A DNA stretch of 64,000 nucleotides from Campylobacter concisus (GCF_015229955.1 NZ_JAAKYZ010000001.1:248001-312000); one strand, 5' to 3'; shown: positions 50,915-62,130, counted from the first letter of the stretch. Numbers and translations are program-made. Notes: generated from the sequence alone by a model not told the origin.

Positions 50915-51418
50915 ATTTAGGCAGTTTGCTAGGATAAAATTTACGCAAGCGCAAAACAAACACGAGCATAAATTTAAACGTCGCATAAAACGGCGTCTAT
51001 ATTTTTAAGGCAAAGTTAAATTTATAAACTTTTACAGAAATTTCATGGTTAAGTTGCCCAAAAGAGCTCTTAGGGCATACTCATATCATAAGCACCAACA
51101 AAGACTATCAAAGATGCGAGATAGATGAAGATAGTAGCGGTTGAGGTCTATATAGTAAGTAAAGCATTAAGATGCGTGATTAAAAGCCTATTTAAAAGAG
51201 TTTGTAAAAAGATGTTTTTCAAAGTAATGTAAAGAAATTTTAGCCACTTTGTTTTTGAGCAAAACTCATTCTATCTACGAATAAACCGCACCTTTTTATG
51301 CTTTTTATAACTTTGATATCCAACAAACTTTACAAAATTTAGCCCAGAGCCACGAGCTGCAAGGCGCACGATTCACGAGCCACACAAGAAAAAAAACAAA
51401 AGTCACATGAGCAAAAAA

Positions 51419-51446
51419 CCAAAAACCAAAAACCAAAAACCAAAAA
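51419..51446. repeat. Tandem repeat (CCAAAAA)x4
   Basis: Four perfect heptamers, preceded by a partial unit. It lies 33 bp beyond the NifB-like stop. Slippage-prone, but outside any gene. Confidence 0.85.
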
Positions 51447-51449
51447 TGC

Positions 51450-51475
51450 AAAAGGCACTAAATTCAGTGCCTTTT
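51450..51475. terminator. Bidirectional terminator of the NifB-like operon
   Basis: Ten-bp arms AAAAGGCACT / AGTGCCTTTT with loop AAATTC; A-run and T-run on the two sides, so it can function in both directions. It is 5 bp past the minus-strand stop of the NifB-like gene. Confidence 0.9.
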
Positions 51476-51479
51476 ATCG

Positions 51480-52307
51480 CTATCTTTCGCCAAGCTTTCC
51501 ACATGCATCAGCGCGGCATCTACTGCAATGCGACATTTGATTTATGTCACTACCTATTGATCTGCGGATGCGGTGGATCTCATCGGTTGAAGGGGATTTT
51601 AAATTTTCAAAAGGCGTACCATGCACCGGTATCATCGCCATGCAGTTCATTATGTCAGCTCCCCACTGCTTTGCCTTTGCTGAGATGCTTTGGACGTGGT
51701 CCATATTGACCCCGGGGATGACGACGGTGTTTATCTTTACTAGCATGCCAGCCTCTTTTAGCTTGCGGATGCCCTCGTCCTGGCGCGCTAGCAGTATCCT
51801 AGCAGCCTCTTCGCCGTAGTAGTTTTTACCTTCATACCTCACCCACGAATAGACCTTCGAGCCAACATCTGGCGTCACGGCATTAACAGTCACTGTCACG
51901 TGGCTCACGCCAAGACGCACGATCTCATCAACATGCTCAGGCAGAGCTAGTCCATTAGTTGAGAGGCATAGCAGGGCATTTGGGAAGTGGGACTTACACT
52001 TTTCAAAGGTCGCTAGTGTCTTGTCAGCGTCGCACATCGGATCTCCAGGTCCAGCGATGCCGATGACGGAGATGTCTTGTCTAAATTTAAAGAGCTTTTC
52101 TAAAAATTTCACCGATTCATCTGGAGTTTGCACCTTTGCTGTTACGCCAGGGCGGTTTTCATTAGCGCAGTCATATATGCGGTTGCAGAAGTTGCACTGG
52201 ATGTTGCAGTGTGGGGCAACTGGTAGATGCACGCGTCCGTAGTTAGCGGAGGCCTTTTTGTTAAAGCAGGGGTGGCTGTCTAGATCAGCCTTAGTGCGAA
52301 AAATCAT
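51480..52307 (-). CDS. NifB-family radical SAM protein (cofactor core synthase domain)
   Basis: A 275-aa protein matching the radical SAM core of NifB in detail: HPCFNKKASANYGRVHLPVAP, the SAM-cluster motif CNIQCNFCNR, YDCANENRPGVTAKV, GIAGPGDPM, CLSTNGLALPEHVDE, HVTVTVNAV and the C-terminal HCSRCRADACGKLGE. NifB makes the [8Fe-9S-C] precursor of the nitrogenase cofactor. No nifHDKEN or nifX-like gene is in the window, and the NafY/NifX-like C-terminal domain of some NifB proteins is absent. It is the last gene of an operon with a NapH-like protein and a Tat-exported binding protein, overlapping the former by one base (TAATG). The function outside nitrogen fixation is unknown. Confidence 0.88.
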   Translation of the reverse strand: MIFRTKADLDSHPCFNKKASANYGRVHLPVAPHCNIQCNFCNRIYDCANENRPGVTAKVQTPDESVKFLEKLFKFRQDISVIGIAGPGDPMCDADKTLATFEKCKSHFPNALLCLSTNGLALPEHVDEIVRLGVSHVTVTVNAVTPDVGSKVYSWVRYEGKNYYGEEAARILLARQDEGIRKLKEAGMLVKINTVVIPGVNMDHVQSISAKAKQWGADIMNCMAMIPVHGTPFENLKSPSTDEIHRIRRSIGSDINQMSHCSRCRADACGKLGER

Positions 52308-53119
52308 TAGTTCTTTTTCCTTCCAAATTTAATGGCATTTGCATGGCAGACATTGAGGCAGTCTCCGCAGTTTGTGCAGTTTGTCTCATCAGGTCTTGTC
52401 CCCATTTCGCACTTACGCAAGCACGCGTCGCAGTTGTCACAAGCGCTTGTTTTATAGACGCGAAAGATCGAAAATTTACGCAAAATTTCAAGCACGCCAC
52501 CTGATGGACAGACGAAACGGCACCAAAGGTTGGCTACGATCAGCGAGGCTAGCATGATTGAGACGATGATCACCGTGCGAGTGACCCACTCCCACTCGCC
52601 AAAGCGAAGTGATAAAGTAACGGCAGTTAGGTACTCATCGCTCGTTCTTATAGGTATCATCATGCGAGGATTGCCCCAGACGAAATAGACCCAAAGGCTG
52701 ATTGCTATGGCAATTAGCATGCCTATTTGAGCGATTATCAGCTTTTTGCTGCGAATTTTTAGCTTGAAAAAGGCAAATTTACCAAGCATTTGATTGACAA
52801 AGCCTGCTGGACAGACCCAGCCACAAAATGCCCTACCAAAGAGGATGACAAGTGCTGGGATAAATAGCCAAAATCCAAAAAACAGCGACGTGATCCGCCC
52901 CCAACAGGTGATGATAGGGCAGTTTTGGCAATTCACAAAAGGCACCACAAAAGGGCATCTAAAAATGCCGTAATATGCCCATTGACCGATGCCAGCTATA
53001 AAGATGAGCTGCACTAGGCGTCTTATCTTTGTTGTGGGAGAGTTTTTGCTTTTCTTTTTTAAATTTACATTGCCGCATGCACTGCCATTAGAGCATGCGC
53101 TATTACAGCTACTACACAT
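52307..53119 (-). CDS. NapH/NosR-type membrane polyferredoxin
   Basis: A 270-aa inner-membrane iron-sulfur protein. A Cys-rich N terminus (CSSCNSACSNGSAC) precedes four transmembrane segments at residues ~35-52, ~80-105, ~125-145 and ~185-205; loop motifs CGWVCP and CRFVCP and two C-terminal [4Fe-4S] sets (CDNCDACLRKCEMG, CTNCGDCLNVCHA) follow. Such proteins move electrons from quinol to periplasmic or cytoplasmic redox enzymes. It overlaps the upstream binding-protein gene by 8 bp and the NifB-like gene by 1 bp. It could supply electrons for the radical SAM partner. Confidence 0.85.
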   Translation of the reverse strand: MCSSCNSACSNGSACGNVNLKKKSKNSPTTKIRRLVQLIFIAGIGQWAYYGIFRCPFVVPFVNCQNCPIITCWGRITSLFFGFWLFIPALVILFGRAFCGWVCPAGFVNQMLGKFAFFKLKIRSKKLIIAQIGMLIAIAISLWVYFVWGNPRMMIPIRTSDEYLTAVTLSLRFGEWEWVTRTVIIVSIMLASLIVANLWCRFVCPSGGVLEILRKFSIFRVYKTSACDNCDACLRKCEMGTRPDETNCTNCGDCLNVCHANAIKFGRKKN

Positions 53120-53972
53120 CTTTTACACCAAACCTTTCTATAAGCTCTAGCCCACGCGCTGAATAAATGGAGGTAAAGCCATGTTTTTCAAAAATTTCTT
53201 GCCCCTCAGTGCCGCAAACAAAGTCTGCAAAGTCATTTGCGAGCCTTTCATCTTTTACATATTTCATTATATTTAGCGTAAAAGTGAGCGGTCCAGGCGG
53301 GATGAGCTTTTCATCGATGGGCATATACTCGATCTTGTCTTTAAACCTATCGTGCGTTGTTAGGCGCTTTTCGATGATCGAAGCATCGCCCTTGCCATCA
53401 ACTAGCTCGCACATCATATTTATGACGCATGATCCATTTGCGACCATGTTTTTCATCACCGCATCAGTTAGGTTTGAGTTTTTTAAGATCCCTTTGACCG
53501 GGCCACTGCCAGGGGGCGATGATCTAAGAGGCAGCATCACTCTAACTCCTGGCTCAGCAAGGTCTTTTAAGTCGCGAATGCCAGCAGGGTTGCCTTTTGG
53601 CACGACTAGGACGTAGTCAGTAAAGCATAGAGGCCTAAAGTGGAGGCTAAGACCAGCTTTGCGAAGTTTTTTAGAAAGCTCTAAAACCCTTGCTCCAAAG
53701 AGCTCGGTCGTGCTTTGAAGTGCTAAAAGCGACTTGCCAAGAGCGCCAGCAAAGGCGCCGGTGTATTGGATGTTGTGCCCTGTTCTTGACTCGTAAATGG
53801 CGTTTAGCTCGTTAAAAGCTTCAGACAAGCCTCCACACGACCAAACCTGAAGCGAGTCAGACTTAAATGGCGTAAAGCCAGCCAGCATCGTTTGTGGCGT
53901 GGCAGCAGCCGCTGTGGCTAAAGCACCTTTTAAAAAGCCACGGCGTGATATACCGGTTTGTTTTAATTCCAC
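53112..53972 (-). CDS. Tat-exported ModA/WtpA-like periplasmic binding protein
   Basis: A 286-aa protein starting with GTG (AAGGAG upstream). It has a twin-arginine signal (SRRGFLKGALATAAAATPQT) and a type II solute-binding fold of the molybdate/tungstate type (LQVWSCGGLSEAFNELNAIYESRTG, FADFVCGTEGQEIFEKHGF). No ABC permease or ATPase is next to it. It is instead the first gene of the operon with the NapH-like and NifB-like genes. A Tat-exported binding protein without a transporter is unusual; it may bind a metal oxyanion or a cluster or act as a sensor. Ligand inferred only by fold. Confidence 0.75.
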   Translation of the reverse strand: MELKQTGISRRGFLKGALATAAAATPQTMLAGFTPFKSDSLQVWSCGGLSEAFNELNAIYESRTGHNIQYTGAFAGALGKSLLALQSTTELFGARVLELSKKLRKAGLSLHFRPLCFTDYVLVVPKGNPAGIRDLKDLAEPGVRVMLPLRSSPPGSGPVKGILKNSNLTDAVMKNMVANGSCVINMMCELVDGKGDASIIEKRLTTHDRFKDKIEYMPIDEKLIPPGPLTFTLNIMKYVKDERLANDFADFVCGTEGQEIFEKHGFTSIYSARGLELIERFGVKDV

Positions 53973-54349: not shown

Positions 54350-54934
54350 ATGATAAAAATAAGCGACATATCTGAGATAAAAACTGGTCTAGTTTTAATC
54401 CGCAAAAAGGCGGACAAAAATGTAGATGAGAAATTTCGCTATAAAGTAGTCTCGTTAAAGTCCTTTAACGAAAATGCACTCTTTGATGACACATTTGCCG
54501 ATGAGTTCATATCAAGCGAAAAAATAAGCGATGAGTATAAAGTGAGCCGTGGCGATGTTTTACTGCGCCTTAGAGAGCCAAATTTTGCCGTTTATATAGA
54601 CAAGGACTATGACGATCTTATCTACACATCTTTGATGGTTCGCATAAGAGTTAAAAACGCTAAATTTGATCCGCATTTTGTGGCTCATTATCTAAACAGC
54701 AGCGCCGTTAAAAGAGCCCTTGCGCCAGATGTTTCAGGCACTACAATAGCGATGATAGGCGTTGCAAGTATAAATAATCTAAAAATACCGCTTGTAAATT
54801 TGCAAACTCAAAACAAGATAGTAAAATACCTAAATTTAGCTCGCCAGGAGAGCGAAATTTTACAAAATTTAGCAGCCCAAAAGCAAAGATACCACAAAAG
54901 CATATTTGAAAATTTAATAAAAGAGGAGAGCTAA
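54350..54934 (+). CDS. Half-size HsdS-like specificity protein
   Basis: A 194-aa protein shaped like one target-recognition domain plus coiled coil of a type I S subunit: KISDISEIKTGLVL at the start, DVLLRLREPNFAVYIDK, LNSSAVKRALAPDVSGTTIAMIGVASINNLKIPLVNLQTQNKIVKYLNLARQ near the end with a following helix. Full HsdS proteins have two such modules; this one is half length. It could dimerise into a palindromic-site specificity unit or modify targeting by the full HsdS at 56423. It ends 1 bp before hsdM. Confidence 0.65.
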   Translation: MIKISDISEIKTGLVLIRKKADKNVDEKFRYKVVSLKSFNENALFDDTFADEFISSEKISDEYKVSRGDVLLRLREPNFAVYIDKDYDDLIYTSLMVRIRVKNAKFDPHFVAHYLNSSAVKRALAPDVSGTTIAMIGVASINNLKIPLVNLQTQNKIVKYLNLARQESEILQNLAAQKQRYHKSIFENLIKEES

Positions 54935-54935
54935 G

Positions 54936-56426
54936 ATGCAAAAGACCACACAAGATACCATAAATAACGTAGTTTGGAAGGCTTGTGACACATTTCGTGG
55001 CACGATGGATGGAAGCGACTATAAAGACTATGTTTTAACGATGCTTTTTGTTAAATATCTATCTGATTTTTATAAAGAAAAGCTTGAGTTGCTAAGAGCC
55101 GAATACGGTGACAAGAGCGAGAGGATCGAAGCAAAGCTAAAGAAAGAGAAATTTAAGCTTGATGAGAGTTGCACCTTTGAGTATCTTTTAGCGCACAAAG
55201 AGGCTGCAAATTTAGGCGAGATAATGAACAAAACGCTAGAAAAGATCGAAGAGGACAACAAAGATAAGCTCGAAGGCATCTTTAGAAGCATAGATTTTAA
55301 TAACAAAAACAAGCTTGGTGACACAAAAGAGAGAAACGCTATCTTGAAAAATTTACTTGAGGACTTTAGCGACGCTAGGCTAGATCTTCGCCCATCTATG
55401 CTTGAGGGCAACGACATAATAGGCGACGCATACGAGTATCTTATAGCTCACTTTGCAAGCGACGCTGGCAAAAAAGGCGGAGAGTTTTATACGCCAAGAG
55501 AGGTTTCGACGCTTCTTGCAAAGCTAGTTGAGCCAAAAGAGGGCGATATGATCTATGATCCTACTTGCGGCTCTGGTTCGCTTCTTATCAAGGCTTCAAA
55601 AGAGGTCGGCAGTAAAAATTTCCGCCTTTACGGACAGGAGAAAAACGGACAAACTCACGCACTTTGCAAGATGAATATGTTTTTGCACGAGATAAATGAC
55701 GCCGTGATCGAGTGGGGCGACACGATCAGAAATCCTCTTCATCTACAAGACAATCTTATAAAGACCTTTGATATAGTCGTGGCAAATCCCCCTTTTAGCC
55801 TAGATAAATGGGGCGCTGACTTTGCTCTAAACGATCCTTTTATGAGATTTGCTAGCTATGCTTTGCCGCCAAAGAGCAAGGGCGACTATGCATTTGTCGT
55901 GCATATGATAAAAAGCCTAGGTAGTAACGGCAAAATGGGCGTCGTGCTTCCACATGGAGTGCTATTTCGCGGAGCAAATGAGGGCAAGATCCGCCAAAAG
56001 CTGATCGAAGAAAATTTGCTTGACGCCGTCATTGGCCTACCGGCAAATTTATTTTATGGCACGAGCATCCCTGCTTGCATACTTGTTTTTAAGAAAAACC
56101 GCGCAAACGAAGATGTGCTATTTATCGACGCTAGCAAAGAATTTGAAAAAGGCAAAAACCAAAACTCGCTAACCGAGCAAAACATAAAAAAGATAGTCGC
56201 TACCTACAAAAACAGAAGCGAGATAGAAAAATACTCCCACCTAGCAAGCCTTAGCGAGATAAAAGAGAATGGCTACAACCTAAACATCCCTCGCTACGTA
56301 GATACCTTTGAAGAAGAAGAGCTTGTAGATATCGAGGCTGCAAAGGCTGAGATTTCACGCCTAGAAGCCGAGCTAAAAAGCGTTCAAAGCAAGATGAGCG
56401 AGTATCTTGCGGAGCTTGGACTATGA
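54936..56426 (+). CDS. hsdM: Type I restriction-modification methyltransferase subunit
   Basis: A 496-aa N6-adenine methyltransferase. N-terminal HsdM helical domain (~1-150), SAM motif DPTCGSGSLLIKA near residue 205, catalytic NPPF in VVANPPFSLDKWG near residue 280. Residues ~440-496 include the coiled coil that docks HsdS. It overlaps hsdS by 4 bp. Confidence 0.95.
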   Translation: MQKTTQDTINNVVWKACDTFRGTMDGSDYKDYVLTMLFVKYLSDFYKEKLELLRAEYGDKSERIEAKLKKEKFKLDESCTFEYLLAHKEAANLGEIMNKTLEKIEEDNKDKLEGIFRSIDFNNKNKLGDTKERNAILKNLLEDFSDARLDLRPSMLEGNDIIGDAYEYLIAHFASDAGKKGGEFYTPREVSTLLAKLVEPKEGDMIYDPTCGSGSLLIKASKEVGSKNFRLYGQEKNGQTHALCKMNMFLHEINDAVIEWGDTIRNPLHLQDNLIKTFDIVVANPPFSLDKWGADFALNDPFMRFASYALPPKSKGDYAFVVHMIKSLGSNGKMGVVLPHGVLFRGANEGKIRQKLIEENLLDAVIGLPANLFYGTSIPACILVFKKNRANEDVLFIDASKEFEKGKNQNSLTEQNIKKIVATYKNRSEIEKYSHLASLSEIKENGYNLNIPRYVDTFEEEELVDIEAAKAEISRLEAELKSVQSKMSEYLAELGL

Positions 56427-57541
56427 GCGAATTTAAAAATTTACCGAGCGGATGGAGTGTCGTGAGGCTTGGGGATGTTTTAAAGATCGGGAGCGGAAGA
56501 GATTATAAACACTTAGAGCTTGGAAATATACCAGTATATGGAACAGGTGGCTATATATTATCTGTTGATGAATTTTTGTATGATGGTGAAAGTGTATGTA
56601 TCGGTAGAAAAGGGACTATCGATAAACCTATATATTTAAATTGTAAATTTTGGACAGTAGATACCTTATTTTATACATACGGATTTAAAAATTCTTTGCC
56701 TAAATTTATTTACTATATATTTTCGACTATAGATTGGCAAAAATACAATGAAGCAACTGGCGTTCCAAGTTTGTCTAAAAACACTATATGTAATATAAGA
56801 GTAAAACTACCATCATTAGACGAGCAAAAAAAGATAGCGGAAATTTTATCTACTTGGGATAAGGCTATAAATTTAACTATAAATTTGATAGAAAGCAAAA
56901 AGCAGTTTAAAAAAGCTCTTATGCAAAATTTACTCACAGCCAAAATCCGCTTTCCCCAATTCAAAGACGAGTGGGAAGAGACAAAGCTTGGTAAAATTCT
57001 AAAAGAGCGTAAAACGTATCAAAACAAAGGTTTTGATTTGGAGCATGTATCTTTAACAAAAGACGGAGTTGTTCCAAAGTGTGAAAGATATGATAGGGAT
57101 TTTTTAGTAAAAGATGATAATAAGCAGTATAAAATAACAAGATTAAACGATATTTGCTACAATCCAGCAAATTTAAAATTTGGTGTAATTTGTAAAAATA
57201 TTTATGGCGATGGCATCTTTTCACCCATATATGTAACATTTGAATGTTGCAATGAGCTTGATAATGATTTTGCTGGATTTTACCTAACTCAAAATGATTT
57301 TATACAAAAAGTTAGAAAATTTGAAGAGGGGACCGTGTATGAAAGAATGGCAGTTAGTCCAGAGGATTTTTTAAGGTTTAAAATAAAGCTTCCAAATTTA
57401 AACGAACAACAAAAAATCGCAGAGGTTTTAACGGCTTGTGATAATGAGGTAAATTTACTAAATTTAAAGCTGGAAAATTTGAAAAAACAAAAACAAGGCT
57501 TGATGCAAAAACTACTAAGCGGAAAGGTAAGAGCAAAATGA
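56423..57541 (+). CDS. hsdS: Type I restriction specificity subunit
   Basis: A 372-aa S subunit with two target-recognition domains: TRD1 residues ~1-135, conserved spacer helix LPSLDEQKKIAEILSTWDKAI at ~130-150, TRD2 ~190-330, and spacer helix LPNLNEQQKIAEVLTACDNEV at ~330-350. TRD sequences are AT-rich and divergent as usual. The DNA target cannot be read from sequence. Its stop overlaps the next gene by 4 bp (ATGA). Confidence 0.92.
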   Translation: MSEFKNLPSGWSVVRLGDVLKIGSGRDYKHLELGNIPVYGTGGYILSVDEFLYDGESVCIGRKGTIDKPIYLNCKFWTVDTLFYTYGFKNSLPKFIYYIFSTIDWQKYNEATGVPSLSKNTICNIRVKLPSLDEQKKIAEILSTWDKAINLTINLIESKKQFKKALMQNLLTAKIRFPQFKDEWEETKLGKILKERKTYQNKGFDLEHVSLTKDGVVPKCERYDRDFLVKDDNKQYKITRLNDICYNPANLKFGVICKNIYGDGIFSPIYVTFECCNELDNDFAGFYLTQNDFIQKVRKFEEGTVYERMAVSPEDFLRFKIKLPNLNEQQKIAEVLTACDNEVNLLNLKLENLKKQKQGLMQKLLSGKVRAK

Positions 57542-58119
57542 TAAATTTGGCTAAATTTATATTAAATTTTAGTTCTTTTGTTTGGATAATAATGTTATTT
57601 GTTTTGTCTAACTTATCAAATGGAGAAAATTTTTTAAATAAATATTTTGATTTTAGGATAAATTGTTATTTTTTTGATTTTCCGATTGAAGTATTTTATT
57701 TCATAATTACTATTTTTATTAACGTGTTGTTATATTTTTGCATAAATTATTTTTTAAAAAATAAAACATGTGATAATTTAAAATTTGAAAAAATATATCC
57801 AGTTTATAGTGAATATGTTGCAAGTTACTTCGCTGTTTGTGCAGCGGTTTTTTCAATGAGCTTTTTAAATAATATAAGTTGGCTTTCAAGTATCATAATT
57901 TGCATTTTTCTATTTTTCGTATTTTATATGAATAATATAGGCTATCTAAACCCATTTCTTTATGTGGTCGGTAAGAGAATTTACAAAGTAGAATCGATCG
58001 AAGGTAGCTTTATTATAATTATTGATAAAAGTGAACAAGTAAAAAAGAAAAAAGAAATTCAAGATTTAGTAAAAATAGATGAAAACGTGTTTTATCATAT
58101 AAAAAAGGATGAAAAATGA
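57538..58119 (+). CDS. Four-helix membrane protein, candidate KwaA of a Kiwa defence pair
   Basis: A 193-aa hydrophobic protein with four transmembrane helices (residues ~8-24, ~50-68, ~92-115 and ~120-137) and a ~50-residue cytoplasmic tail ending in charged residues. It overlaps hsdS and the following gene by 4 bp each. Size, topology and the partner gene fit KwaA, the membrane sensor of the Kiwa anti-phage system, where KwaA and KwaB form a membrane complex. I cannot verify the family from motifs alone; AT-rich codon use differs little from hsdS. Confidence 0.55.
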   Translation: MINLAKFILNFSSFVWIIMLFVLSNLSNGENFLNKYFDFRINCYFFDFPIEVFYFIITIFINVLLYFCINYFLKNKTCDNLKFEKIYPVYSEYVASYFAVCAAVFSMSFLNNISWLSSIIICIFLFFVFYMNNIGYLNPFLYVVGKRIYKVESIEGSFIIIIDKSEQVKKKKEIQDLVKIDENVFYHIKKDEK

Positions 58120-59033
58120 ACTCAAGATTAATGGCTGCAGGAGATGGTATCTATAGCGTTTTTAATAAAGACAACGATGAGATTACTATAAAAAGTGACA
58201 ATGATGTATTTTTTAATAAGGTTAATATTTCTGAAGTGTATGAATATATACGTAATCCAGATAGAGCATTATGCAGGACAGACAATAACATGTGCGATGA
58301 ATGGTTTTTTGTTAATCTTGATTCTTTAGATGAAGATTTGCAAAATGAAATTTTAGGACTTTTTAATGTTTTCGATAATACCGGTAGCTATCCAAATTTA
58401 TCAAAAGATTGTTTTTTAAAAATAAAATACTTTTTTTATGGCTTTGACTCTGGAAAAGATAAAATTATAAATATACAAAATATCAAAAGTGGAAATCTTA
58501 TTAAAGCTACATCATTTTTTGAATTTGGCAGTAGTGATGTAAAGTATAAAAAATTTGAAAAAATTTTAAAGTTTTATAATAAAGTTGATATTTTTATAGA
58601 GAAAAATAGAAAAAAAATATATTTTCAAGATTTTAATCAGTTAAAGTACTTTAATGGCAAATTTATAGAAATTTACAAAGAAGCTACTGAAGAAGATTGC
58701 ACAAAATTTAAAGATACTGTAAATCAAACACTTAGTTTGTTTTCTATGAACATCCAACATTCTAATATAAGAAGTAGAAATAGCAAGAAATTAAAATATA
58801 TACTTGATAATAATATGCTTGAAAAATTTAAAGGAAAAGAAGAGTCGATAAGACATTATATGGATAAATATGGTATTTCTAGCAATCTTGAATACAAAGA
58901 TAATAGATTTATTATAAAAGAAAACAAGCATCTTACTAGCTTAATAGAAATATTTTTTGAGCAACATTATACTGGTGCCATAACAGAACAGCACTTATTG
59001 GCAAGTGGAAACGAGATAATAGAAAATAGTTAA
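58116..59033 (+). CDS. Candidate KwaB (DUF4868-like) of a Kiwa defence pair
   Basis: A 305-aa soluble protein. The middle has a beta-rich IFIEKNRKKIYFQDFNQLKYF followed by helical NGKFIEIYKEATEED; the C-terminal third (LDNNMLEKFKGKEESIRHYMDKYG ... LIEIFFEQHYTGAITEQHL) resembles the DUF4868 family of KwaB, the DNA-binding effector. It is translationally coupled to the membrane protein gene upstream (4-bp overlap) and ends 19 bp before hsdR. The rest of the protein is Asn/Lys-rich with no other recognisable domain. Confidence 0.55.
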   Translation: MNSRLMAAGDGIYSVFNKDNDEITIKSDNDVFFNKVNISEVYEYIRNPDRALCRTDNNMCDEWFFVNLDSLDEDLQNEILGLFNVFDNTGSYPNLSKDCFLKIKYFFYGFDSGKDKIINIQNIKSGNLIKATSFFEFGSSDVKYKKFEKILKFYNKVDIFIEKNRKKIYFQDFNQLKYFNGKFIEIYKEATEEDCTKFKDTVNQTLSLFSMNIQHSNIRSRNSKKLKYILDNNMLEKFKGKEESIRHYMDKYGISSNLEYKDNRFIIKENKHLTSLIEIFFEQHYTGAITEQHLLASGNEIIENS

Positions 59034-59052
59034 ATTGAAATAGGAATAAAAA

Positions 59053-62000
59053 ATGACCCCAGATACTTCAGAAAATAAGATCCAGCAAAACAGCATAAAT
59101 TTACTTCAAAGCTTGGGTTATAAATTTATAAGCAGGGAGGAAAATTTAAAGCTTCGTGGCGGTAAAACTAGCGAGGTTTTGTTTAGGGAAATTTTAACCA
59201 AAAAGCTTGGCGAGATAAACGGTTATGAGTATAAGGGCAAGCGATATAAATTTAGCCAAAGCAGTATATTAAAAGCAGTCGATGAGCTAGCGGGGGTTTC
59301 ACTAAACGAAGGGCTAATAGTCGCAAATGAAAAGATCACGAATTTGCTCTTGCTTGGCACTAGTATCGAGGAAAATTTAGAGGATGGCACAAGAAGGAGC
59401 TTTTCTTTTAAATTTATAGACTTTGAAAATTTGCAAAACAACAACTTTTACGTAACGGAAGAATTTGAAGTAAGCAGGGCAAATCAAGGCGAGGCGCAAA
59501 AACACAGAAGGCCCGATCTTGTGCTTTTTATAAACGGCATACCCATAGTCGTAATCGAGCTTAAAAAATCAAGCGTGAGCTTTGAAAACGGCATAAAACA
59601 GCTTGAAAAAGAGCAGGGCAAAGATGAGATAGTGCATCTTTTTAAATACATCCAGCTAACCATCGCAGCAAATGGAAGCGGGGCAAGATACGGTACAACT
59701 GGAACGCCGTTTAAATTTTATAGCGTGTGGAAAGAACAAGACGAAGCAAAAGCAAAAGAGAGCTTAAAGAGCGTGATAAATGGTAGAGAGGTAAGTGCGC
59801 TTGATATGACGCTCTTTGCGCTACTATCTAAAGATAGGCTGCTAAGGCTAGTTAGGCACTATATAGTGTTTGATAAAAGGATGAAAAAAGTTTGCAGATA
59901 TCAGCAGTTTTTTGCTATCGAAGAGACGCTAAAGAGGGTATCGGCGAAAAAAGACGGAGCAAGAGCGGGCGGACTCATCTGGCACACGCAAGGAAGCGGC
60001 AAGTCGCTCACGATGGTGATGCTAACAAAGCTTTTAAAGCAAATTTACATAAACTCAAAGATCATCGTCGTAACTGATAGGATAGATCTAGACGGACAGA
60101 TACACGAGACTTTTGAAAACACGGATGTAAAAGCAGGGCGAGCAAGTAGCGGAAGCGATCTGATAGAAAAGCTTCAAAGCGGCATTAGCGTGATAACTAC
60201 GCTCGTGCATAAATTTGAAAAGATGAAAAATCAAAAGGTAGTGATAAGAGATGGCGATATATTTGTGCTAGTGGATGAGAGCCACCGCACGCAAGGTGGA
60301 GACCTGCATAAGGCTATGAAAAAGGCGTTGTCTCTTGCTTGTTATATAGGATTTACCGGCACGCCACTTTTAAAACGCGAGAAAAACAGCTTTGCGAAAT
60401 TTGGCGGAGAAATTCATAGATATACGATAGATGATGCGGTAAAAGACGGAGCTGTCTTGCCGCTACTTTACGAGGGGCGATACGTGGGTCAAGAGGTGCT
60501 AGACCCTGATGGGCTAACTAGGAAATTTGATCTCATATCAAGAGAGCTTGGCGATGAGGCCAAAAGGGACTTGCAGCAAAAGTGGGCAAGGTTTGAGCGT
60601 GTGGCATCAAGCGAGCAAAGGCTGGAGCTAATAGCTGTGGATATAAATGAGCATATCAAAAAGACTTTGAAAAAAAGTGGTTTTAAAGCGATGCTTGCAA
60701 CACAAAGAAAATACGACGCCATAAAATATCATCAGATATTTGAAGAATTTGGAGAGATAAAAAGTGCTTATGTGATATCAAGCAACGAGCACGAGGAGCT
60801 TGAGGGCGGGCATAAAGAGTATGTCGCAAAGGCGTGGCAAGAGACTATAAGGGGCTACGGCAGCGAGGAAGAGTATCTAAAGCATGTGAAGGATGAATTT
60901 GTTTACGGCGATGAGATAGACCTGCTTATAGTCGTGGATAAGCTTTTAACAGGCTTTGACGCACCAAGAGCAAGCACGCTTTATATAGATAAACAGCTAA
61001 AAGAGCATAATCTGCTCCAAGCCATAGCTAGAGTAAATAGGCTTTATGATGGGAAAGACTACGGCTATATTATTGATTATAGAGGGCTTTTAGGCGAGCT
61101 TGATGAGGCGCTTACTAGCTATGCTTCGCTAAGTGGCTTTGACCCAGAGGATATAACTGGAGCCGTGATAGACGTAAGAAGCGAGATCATAAAGGCAAAG
61201 ACTTACTATACTCATCTGGACGATCTTTTTAGCAGTGTGAAATTTAAAGACGATCTAGAAAGCTACGTGGCGGTTTTAGAGGACGTGCAAAAACGAGATG
61301 ACTTTAAAGAGTGGCTATCACAGTTTGCTAGGGCGTTTAAACTGGCGCTTTCAAGTGAGAAAATTTATGACATATTAAGCGAAGAGGAGATCAAAGCTTA
61401 TAAGCAGAGGGTTAAATTTTATAACGAGCTAAGAAAGGCGGTGCAACTAAGGTATCACGAGGCTTGCGACTTTGGCAAATACGAAGCGCAGATGCAAAAG
61501 CTGCTTGATACTTATGTAAATGCACAAGGGGTCAATGAGCTTACAAAGCTCGTAAATATCTTTGAGACGGAATTTGACGATGAGGTGCAAAGGGTTGAGG
61601 GTAAAAATGCAAAGGCTGATACGATCATCAGTGCCGTAAGCGCGGTGGTAAAAGAGAAAATGGACTCAAATCCAGCGTTTTATAAATCAATAGCGCAGCA
61701 GATACAAGACATCATCGACGAGTATAAAGCAAAAAGGCTAAGTGAGGAAGAAAAACTTGTCAAAGCAAAACTACTAAAAGACCTAATAACTGGTGCTTTA
61801 AAGCCAAATGAAGACAGGTATCCAAAAGAATTTAATGGTAAGAAAATTTTGTTTGCTATTTATGATAATTTGCTTGACATTTTGGGAGATGTGGAGCTTG
61901 TGGATGTTGAGGTGGTTGCTAAAAATTTGAGCGTGAAATTTTATGAAATTTATGAAGAAGCCTCAAAAAAACCGGAATGGCACAAAAATAAAGACGTAGA

Positions 62001-62130
62001 AAATGAGATAACAAGTCAGATGGAAGACGCTCTTTGGGAGATAGAGGACGAATACGGCGTTTCTATCGATGAGAAGGAGAAAATTTACCAAACTATCCGT
62101 GGAATAGAGATAAGCTTTTATGTTAAATGA
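59053..62130 (+). CDS. hsdR: Type I restriction endonuclease subunit HsdR
   Basis: A 1025-aa R subunit. N-terminal endonuclease domain with a D...E-x-K motif (RRPDLVLFINGIPIVVIELKKSS), then SF2 translocase: Walker A HTQGSGKSLTMVML near residue 317, DEAH-type LVDESHRTQGG, motif III GFTGTPL, motif V/VI LLIVVDKLLTGFDAPRAST and LLQAIARVNR; C-terminal helical domain that docks on the methylase. Cleaves unmodified DNA after translocation. It overlaps the metallopeptidase gene by 11 bp. Confidence 0.95.
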   Translation: MTPDTSENKIQQNSINLLQSLGYKFISREENLKLRGGKTSEVLFREILTKKLGEINGYEYKGKRYKFSQSSILKAVDELAGVSLNEGLIVANEKITNLLLLGTSIEENLEDGTRRSFSFKFIDFENLQNNNFYVTEEFEVSRANQGEAQKHRRPDLVLFINGIPIVVIELKKSSVSFENGIKQLEKEQGKDEIVHLFKYIQLTIAANGSGARYGTTGTPFKFYSVWKEQDEAKAKESLKSVINGREVSALDMTLFALLSKDRLLRLVRHYIVFDKRMKKVCRYQQFFAIEETLKRVSAKKDGARAGGLIWHTQGSGKSLTMVMLTKLLKQIYINSKIIVVTDRIDLDGQIHETFENTDVKAGRASSGSDLIEKLQSGISVITTLVHKFEKMKNQKVVIRDGDIFVLVDESHRTQGGDLHKAMKKALSLACYIGFTGTPLLKREKNSFAKFGGEIHRYTIDDAVKDGAVLPLLYEGRYVGQEVLDPDGLTRKFDLISRELGDEAKRDLQQKWARFERVASSEQRLELIAVDINEHIKKTLKKSGFKAMLATQRKYDAIKYHQIFEEFGEIKSAYVISSNEHEELEGGHKEYVAKAWQETIRGYGSEEEYLKHVKDEFVYGDEIDLLIVVDKLLTGFDAPRASTLYIDKQLKEHNLLQAIARVNRLYDGKDYGYIIDYRGLLGELDEALTSYASLSGFDPEDITGAVIDVRSEIIKAKTYYTHLDDLFSSVKFKDDLESYVAVLEDVQKRDDFKEWLSQFARAFKLALSSEKIYDILSEEEIKAYKQRVKFYNELRKAVQLRYHEACDFGKYEAQMQKLLDTYVNAQGVNELTKLVNIFETEFDDEVQRVEGKNAKADTIISAVSAVVKEKMDSNPAFYKSIAQQIQDIIDEYKAKRLSEEEKLVKAKLLKDLITGALKPNEDRYPKEFNGKKILFAIYDNLLDILGDVELVDVEVVAKNLSVKFYEIYEEASKKPEWHKNKDVENEITSQMEDALWEIEDEYGVSIDEKEKIYQTIRGIEISFYVK

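Follow-up and report, generated by a model that had tools for sequence, protein, structure and literature searches.

In a 64,000-nucleotide stretch of Campylobacter concisus DNA (GCF_015229955.1 NZ_JAAKYZ010000001.1:248001-312000; hereafter the window), open reading frame (ORF) calling places three genes at 51480-53972 on the minus strand. The first (53112..53972) encodes a 286-aa substrate-binding protein (SBP) of the ModA/PEB3 fold with a signal for twin-arginine translocation (Tat), the second (52307..53119) a 270-aa NapH-like polytopic membrane protein, and the third (51480..52307) a 275-aa NifB-core radical SAM (S-adenosylmethionine) protein without the NifX domain. The SBP and NapH-like genes overlap by exactly 8 bp and the NapH-like and NifB genes by exactly 1 bp. 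A preliminary description of the window had read this arrangement as one operon, and that reading holds: the ORFs share a strand, the overlaps are as it gave them, and the same order recurs in the host family and in Negativicutes. Between the window and another C. concisus locus (L045), nonsynonymous divergence (dN) was 0.003-0.021 and synonymous divergence (dS) 0.15-0.27. Because dN lies well below dS, this comparison indicates that the three-gene unit, which we call the cassette, is under strong purifying selection. Its recurrence in 18 host-family genomes and in Negativicutes, under such selection, argues that the operon is not a chance arrangement. We describe here a NifB that is kept without nitrogenase partners in its host genome and that, in Negativicutes, is encoded among genes for selenium use.

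Products of the three genes

The NifB protein scored 354.1 bits against TIGR01290 nifB (cut-off 343.65), with MoaA the next-best family at 55 bits, and its relatives in the Protein Data Bank (PDB) were the four NifB sequences only (E about 1e-75). The preliminary description had noted all NifB radical SAM motifs in this protein, including one at the C-terminus, which indeed reads HCSRCRADACGKLGE. By alignment, all ten known ligands of the radical SAM (RS) and K clusters have equivalents (C14, H27, C34/C38/C41, C47, E50, C114, C261, and C264). C34/C38/C41 make up the RS motif CX3CX2C, and C47 and E50 correspond to the mobile-loop Cys and Glu; ligand roles are those given in passages of PMC9692996. 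The C261-x2-C264 pair (51516..51527; this and all residue coordinates below are on the minus strand) lies in an HCSRCRADA motif and is the equivalent of the MtNifB K2 ligands C273/C276. Across 22 cassette NifBs, the ten ligands were invariant, with the exception of E50 in one. We consider it likely that the cassette NifB makes the L-type cluster. The preliminary description had raised a “different” iron-sulfur-carbide cluster, but there is no need for one because all known K-cluster ligands are conserved.

Cys222 (51642..51644) emerged from the alignment as a signature of the cassette clade. It is invariant there and is V or I in the nitrogenase and nitrogenase-like NifBs compared, except in the sister of the clade (L057:836-2092), which also has Cys. 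This sister comes from a genome with several PF00148 genes and, given its position and its shared Cys222, may show the ancestral form of the cassette NifB. A clade-specific Cys in place of V/I could also signal that NifB was recruited to other radical SAM chemistry with no carbide cluster made, for example to modify an exported protein, as many radical SAM enzymes modify a neighboring protein. However, every known RS and K-cluster residue is kept, including the mobile-loop Cys and Glu, and the K-cluster ligands would be superfluous for other chemistry. We regard this explanation as improbable.

The cassette NifB has in common with nitrogenase NifB its TIGR01290 family score and its RS and K-cluster ligands. 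It differs in having no NifDK, NifEN, NifX, or NifH partners, in belonging to a separate clade with Cys222, and in that its gene accompanies those for a NapH-like protein and an exported SBP. Its single-domain radical SAM architecture is the same as that of stand-alone archaeal NifB (PMC5715403).

The SBP matched PF13531 (SBP_bac_11, E=1.2e-40) and the PF10518 TAT_signal profile (25.2 bits vs a cut-off of 22.7). Within its twin-arginine signal region (53865..53972, SRRGFLKG), R10-R11 was invariant in 23 aligned cassette SBPs. The AlphaFold model (pLDDT 81) is a two-domain binding protein with a disordered signal region, and Foldseek returned molybdate-binding proteins (4kd5) and PEB3 as the nearest solved structures. 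The earlier label of a “molybdate type” binding protein is therefore borne out by fold but not by family score (32.1 bits against modA TIGR01256, below the cut-off of 62.5) or by gene content, as there is no ATP-binding cassette (ABC) transporter (ModBC) in the operon or adjacent to it. Molybdate uptake through a nearby ABC transporter was dropped as an explanation, since at L052 and L063 the transporter genes close to the cassette look like those of cystine/amino-acid systems, not ModABC. Further differences from ModA and PEB3 are the Tat signal and three invariant cysteines, of which two map to the ligand cleft.

These cysteines, Cys46 (53835..53837), Cys116 (53625..53627), and Cys182 (53427..53429), were invariant in 25/25 aligned cassette SBPs and are Gly, Ala, and Ser, respectively, in the non-cassette paralogue L124. 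In the model, Cys46 ends strand 1 and starts helix 1 in the ligand cleft, Cys116 lies in the hinge strand (PLCFT), and Cys182 precedes helix 183-191, which lines the ModA oxyanion site. Using what we take to be the molybdate-ligand positions of ModA, alignment placed Cys46 and Cys182 at the cleft, next to the molybdate-binding positions. A set of four conserved cysteines was also considered; the wider alignment leaves three invariant, with C188 confined to members of Campylobacter and Veillonellaceae. Loading of a periplasmic protein by NifB, as the preliminary description had suggested it may do, is consistent for the SBP with the three invariant cysteines, two of them modeled at the cleft, and with Tat export. 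We would put the SBP as acceptor of a NifB-made cluster at a little short of an even prospect.

The membrane protein matched PF12801 and scored 61.2 bits against TIGR02163 NapH. Because this is well below the cut-off of 213.05, we call it NapH-like rather than NapH. It has membrane segments, two CxxxCP motifs, and two C-terminal [4Fe-4S] motifs in common with the NapH/MauN ferredoxin-type quinol proteins. Sixteen cysteines were invariant in 24/24 NapH-like sequences. The C-terminal double [4Fe-4S] domain accounts for eight of them and the first loop for four (C55, C64, C67, and C72; 52904..52957), with the two CxxxCP motifs supplying the rest. By contrast with NapH/MauN, this four-Cys loop is extra, and the operon contains no NapG/NapA. 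The loop is predicted to face the periplasm, judging from the hydrophobic segments and a positively charged N-terminus.

Distribution and absence of nitrogenase partners

We surveyed Campylobacterota (298 genomes) and Negativicutes (300 genomes) for the cassette. Eighteen genomes of the host family carry the cassette NifB (17 in the host genus and one in another genus), with the same gene order in those examined, and the SBP occurred in only two genera of Campylobacterota. Among named genomes, those of Megasphaera micronuciformis, Colibacter massiliensis, Anaeroglobus geminatus, and several Veillonella species proved on scanning to have the cassette, with SBP identities of 63-75%. The SBP of the window matched that of C. 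concisus UNSWCS in identity, which makes the host C. concisus or a close relative. The class-wide search of Negativicutes detected the SBP in 23/300 genomes, including larger-genome relatives at 52-60% identity. The preliminary description had proposed a survey of three-gene co-occurrence, and this revealed a fixed order in two phyla: by tblastn, SBP, NapH, and NifB follow one another on one strand in 37/40 loci (one genome present twice). In the other three, NifB is missing or only a remnant (L113 and L117) or the SBP is broken (L123). Full cassettes were detected in L120 and L121, and SBP genes are frameshifted in L050 and L055. The cassette was not found in the plasmid and viral collections searched.

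Cassette genes are also frameshifted, interrupted by stops, or apparently truncated in some strains of Campylobacter relatives (G042, G030, G032, G014, and G001), which indicates that the bacteria can do without the cassette and that parts of the genus are losing it.

In a maximum-likelihood tree, the 22 cassette NifBs formed one clade (support 100/97) that took in neither the nitrogenase NifBs nor those encoded beside nitrogenase-like genes. The Campylobacter copies nest inside Veillonellaceae, beside Megasphaera. This nesting indicates lateral transfer between phyla, with Veillonellaceae to Campylobacter as the most likely direction. Other short Negativicutes NifB-like proteins were considered as further orphan NifBs and rejected, as many adjoin PF00148 genes. 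In the tree, they fall outside the cassette clade. A second short NifB-like set, from Negativicutes genomes without the cassette (L166-L171 and L176-L178), lies beside PF00148-type gene pairs, with no complete nif cluster visible in the stretches examined. This layout is like that of MarHDK and other nitrogenase-like (group IV) systems, in which a NifB-like gene stands beside reductase genes outside classical nif clusters. Group IV systems, however, have NifDK-fold proteins, whereas the cassette has none.

The host genome, with a completeness of 99.87%, gave no profile match to PF00148 (the NifDK/EN fold) and none to PF02579 (NifX-type). Matches to the NifH reductase family (PF00142) were weak and partial, with the best single stretch at 30.4 bits (46.2 summed, another frame), and 13/14 control genomes also matched this profile above cut-off. 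By the preliminary description's own account, its proposal would fall if a nitrogenase, or a reductase resembling one, were encoded at another locus and used this protein; these searches led us to reject such a partner. PF00148 was above cut-off in none of the other 17 host-family genomes that carry the cassette NifB. Within the order, it was above cut-off in 16 other genomes, mostly those with full-length NifB. Veillonella and Colibacter had no PF00148 matches. Remote PF00148 proteins (60-109 bits) were seen in cassette-bearing M. micronuciformis and A. geminatus (L081-L084).

It could still be argued that NifB works for a nitrogenase, or a reductase like it, encoded at another locus, or that it is a decaying remnant, and the broken cassette copies in G042, G030, and G032 would fit the latter. 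Yet PF00148 is absent from the C. concisus genome and above cut-off in none of the 18 host-family carriers, dN is well below dS, and the three-gene order is fixed in two phyla. We give this explanation almost no weight, and its nitrogenase version is already largely refuted by the PF00148 search.

Linkage to selenium genes and proposed function

In Negativicutes, YedE, a putative selenium transporter, is encoded within a few kb of the cassette in 17/23 loci. It follows NifB on the same strand in L115, L116, L118, L119, and L123, with a lyase gene between them in L123. At L121, a stretch of about 8 kb contains genes for YedE, the lyase, a double-cubane protein, its activase, SBP, NapH, and NifB, all on the same strand. 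The YedE of L066 scored 506 bits against TIGR04112 (cut-off 200), and a TIGR01977/SclA-like (selenocysteine-lyase-like) protein also adjoins the cassette. SelD and PF11823 (Putative Se/S carrier protein-like) genes are near the cassette in several Negativicutes loci. YedE above the TIGR04112 cut-off is present in all 41 cassette genomes (23/23 Negativicutes and 18/18 host-family). Within Negativicutes, this compares with 61/300 genomes overall (hypergeometric 2.4e-18), and SelD is present in 22/23 cassette genomes vs. 99/300 overall (7.6e-11), in tests that were not corrected for relatedness.

Passages of published selenium surveys tie YedE, YedF, DUF3343, and selenocysteine lyase to selenium (PMC5322559, PMC2276186) and report co-occurrence of YedE with SelD (PMC5322559). 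In Negativicutes, the cassette sits among and co-occurs with the genes of these selenium-utilization sets. The accessible text of the main survey (PMC5322559) contains no match for NifB, NapH, or radical SAM, and none of the passages of selenium literature found names a NifB. Taken together, we think the cassette is probably linked to selenium.

Six Veillonella or Veillonella-like genomes contain SelD, and a profile search did not find SelA in them; in V. infantium, SelD adjoins YedF-like and PF11823 genes. Because SelD occurs there without SelA, selenocysteine cannot be the sole reason for the selenium link in Veillonella. SelA is present in all 18 host-family carriers. A possible unknown SelD-based trait is raised in a passage of PMC5029168, and V. 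atypica is described in part of PMC7324755 as reducing selenite with genes that have been elusive.

In both phyla, genes for a double-cubane-cluster reductase and its activase are immediate or near neighbors of some cassettes (L052:2499-4381, L055:8978-10646, L121:4979-6841, and L123:426-2384; family assignment NF040772, tested on L052), a hint that these two unusual Fe-S systems may be functionally connected. In Campylobacter, this pair is the only neighbor of note, adjoining two cassette copies. A passage of PMC10418091 makes a provisional connection between double-cubane proteins and selenium.

Thiosulfate or polysulfide, rather than a selenium compound, could instead be what the same machinery acts on, with the neighbors being general sulfur-transfer genes. 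YedE belongs to the Sulf_transp family, TIGR01977 proteins are cysteine-desulfurase-like, and one genome (G443, locus L120) has the cassette and YedE with neither SelD nor SelA over cut-off, owing to sulfur-only use or to missing sequence in the draft assembly. However, the L066 YedE falls within the selenium subfamily TIGR04112, and every cassette genome has a copy over its cut-off. SelD, the SelD-YedF-PF11823 set, and selenocysteine-lyase-like genes also occur with the cassette, and the published YedE-SelD co-occurrence (in passages of PMC5322559) points the same way. A role confined to sulfur is, in our view, quite unlikely.

From these components, we infer the following cluster, cluster transfer, electron flow, and substrate. 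In the cytoplasm, the NifB core would fuse two [4Fe-4S] clusters and insert a SAM-derived carbide to yield an [8Fe-9S-C] (NifB-co or L-type) cluster. This cluster would be placed in the Cys-lined cleft (C46, C116, and C182) of the ModA-fold SBP, which would therefore fold before export and leave by Tat. The NapH-like protein would join the quinone pool and cytoplasmic Fe-S centers to the periplasmic side, where its four-Cys loop would meet the exported SBP. The loaded SBP would then bind and reduce a small chalcogen oxyanion, most likely of selenium, and YedE would import the product for SelD and later steps. A selenium oxyanion is suggested as the substrate because of the oxyanion-type SBP fold and the adjacent YedE.

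A NifB cluster for the SBP, with electrons supplied by the NapH-like protein, is the simplest model that uses all three coupled genes. We propose only tentatively that the cassette is a complete three-gene system of this kind, using a NifB-made cluster without a nitrogenase-type protein and serving selenium metabolism. Reduction of selenium oxyanions by the cassette is doubtful. A more specific version, a periplasmic carbide-cluster enzyme, must be called unlikely. In it, Tat would export a binding-protein fold that holds the NifB-built [8Fe-9S-C] cluster, perhaps with selenium in place of the ninth sulfur, and selenium oxyanions would be reduced there with electrons linked to quinol.

The cluster idea has precedent because [8Fe-9S-C]-type clusters have been reported outside the Nif family, in the activation complex of methyl-coenzyme M reductase (MCR) in methanogens (in part of PMC12176620). 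There, the clusters are presumably NifB-made, and NifB is needed in methanogens without nitrogenase. The MCR complex differs in being archaeal and ATP-driven and in using McrC/Mmp proteins, with no exported protein, NapH, or SBP. Selenite as a tracer of the precursor's ninth sulfur is the subject of Tanifuji 2021, going by its title as cited in PMC9692996.

Alternatively, the SBP could be a cluster-free selenium binder whose three cysteines capture selenite or reduced selenium for handover to YedE, the NapH-like protein providing electrons. The NifB cluster would then be used elsewhere, for example in the NapH-like protein or the double-cubane reductase. A ModA/sulfate-type oxyanion fold without an ABC partner would suit such a binder, as would YedE next door and the double-cubane protein and activase adjoining the cassette in L052, L055, L121, and L123. 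However, because double-cubane genes adjoin only these four cassettes, their products are not a general acceptor. Moreover, the SBP is exported by Tat rather than by the general secretory (Sec) pathway, and since NifB is tightly coupled with exactly two partners, the acceptor is most simply the SBP or the NapH-like protein. A cluster-free SBP therefore seems to us a minority prospect, and an unlikely one.

Still, several points weigh against a cluster-loaded SBP that serves selenium metabolism. The three SBP cysteines could instead hold selenium or a metal ion, or pair in a disulfide; binding proteins may be exported by Tat even when they carry no cofactor; and the periplasm would be an unusual place for a cluster that is sensitive to air. 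Relatedness is left in the co-occurrence statistics, G443 has its cassette without SelD or SelA over cut-off, and the role of YedE is itself predicted. The Campylobacter loci have no selenium transport genes beside the cassette, with YedE about 200 kb away, and nearly all host-family relatives have YedE with or without the cassette. For these reasons, the selenium link in Campylobacter rests on Negativicutes.

Each part of the cassette belongs to or resembles a known family, but the combination and the selenium link are new to the open-access literature searched. There, we found nothing relevant on NifB with YedE or selenium, in Veillonella, or in C. concisus, and no description of this gene set, in line with the preliminary description, which knew of none. 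The iron-sulfur cluster that NifB makes ranks among the most complex known, and in bacteria nifB is regarded as a nitrogenase gene. Here, it has been kept under strong selection and across an inter-phylum transfer with no nitrogenase-fold protein in the host genome, providing a minimal three-gene setting in which to ask about other uses of the cluster. Its place among selenium-use genes in Negativicutes suggests a use of this cluster that has not been described. In such genomes, nifB alone should not count as evidence of nitrogen fixation. The cassette may help to explain which genes let Veillonella reduce selenite, called elusive in part of PMC7324755, and what selenium is for in some of its users that lack SelA. 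Veillonella and C. concisus both dwell in the human mouth and belong to unrelated phyla that have the same operon. If true, a periplasmic carbide-cluster enzyme would, to our knowledge, be the first case of a nitrogenase-type cluster beyond the cytoplasm, and it would add a new route to the use or acquisition of selenium.

Surroundings of the operon

Directly 3′ of nifB lies an intrinsic-terminator-like hairpin (51449..51476, minus strand) with 12 pairs and a T-rich tail, identified by its match to the consensus. A short direct repeat of CCAAAAA units (51407-51450) is located just downstream of this terminator. The GC content of the operon is 47.4%, compared with 39.8% for the window, and equally high values occur in other parts of the window. 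Upstream of the operon, at 54350-62130, are genes resembling a type I restriction-modification system, and similar upstream genes are present at the C. concisus loci L045 and L061.

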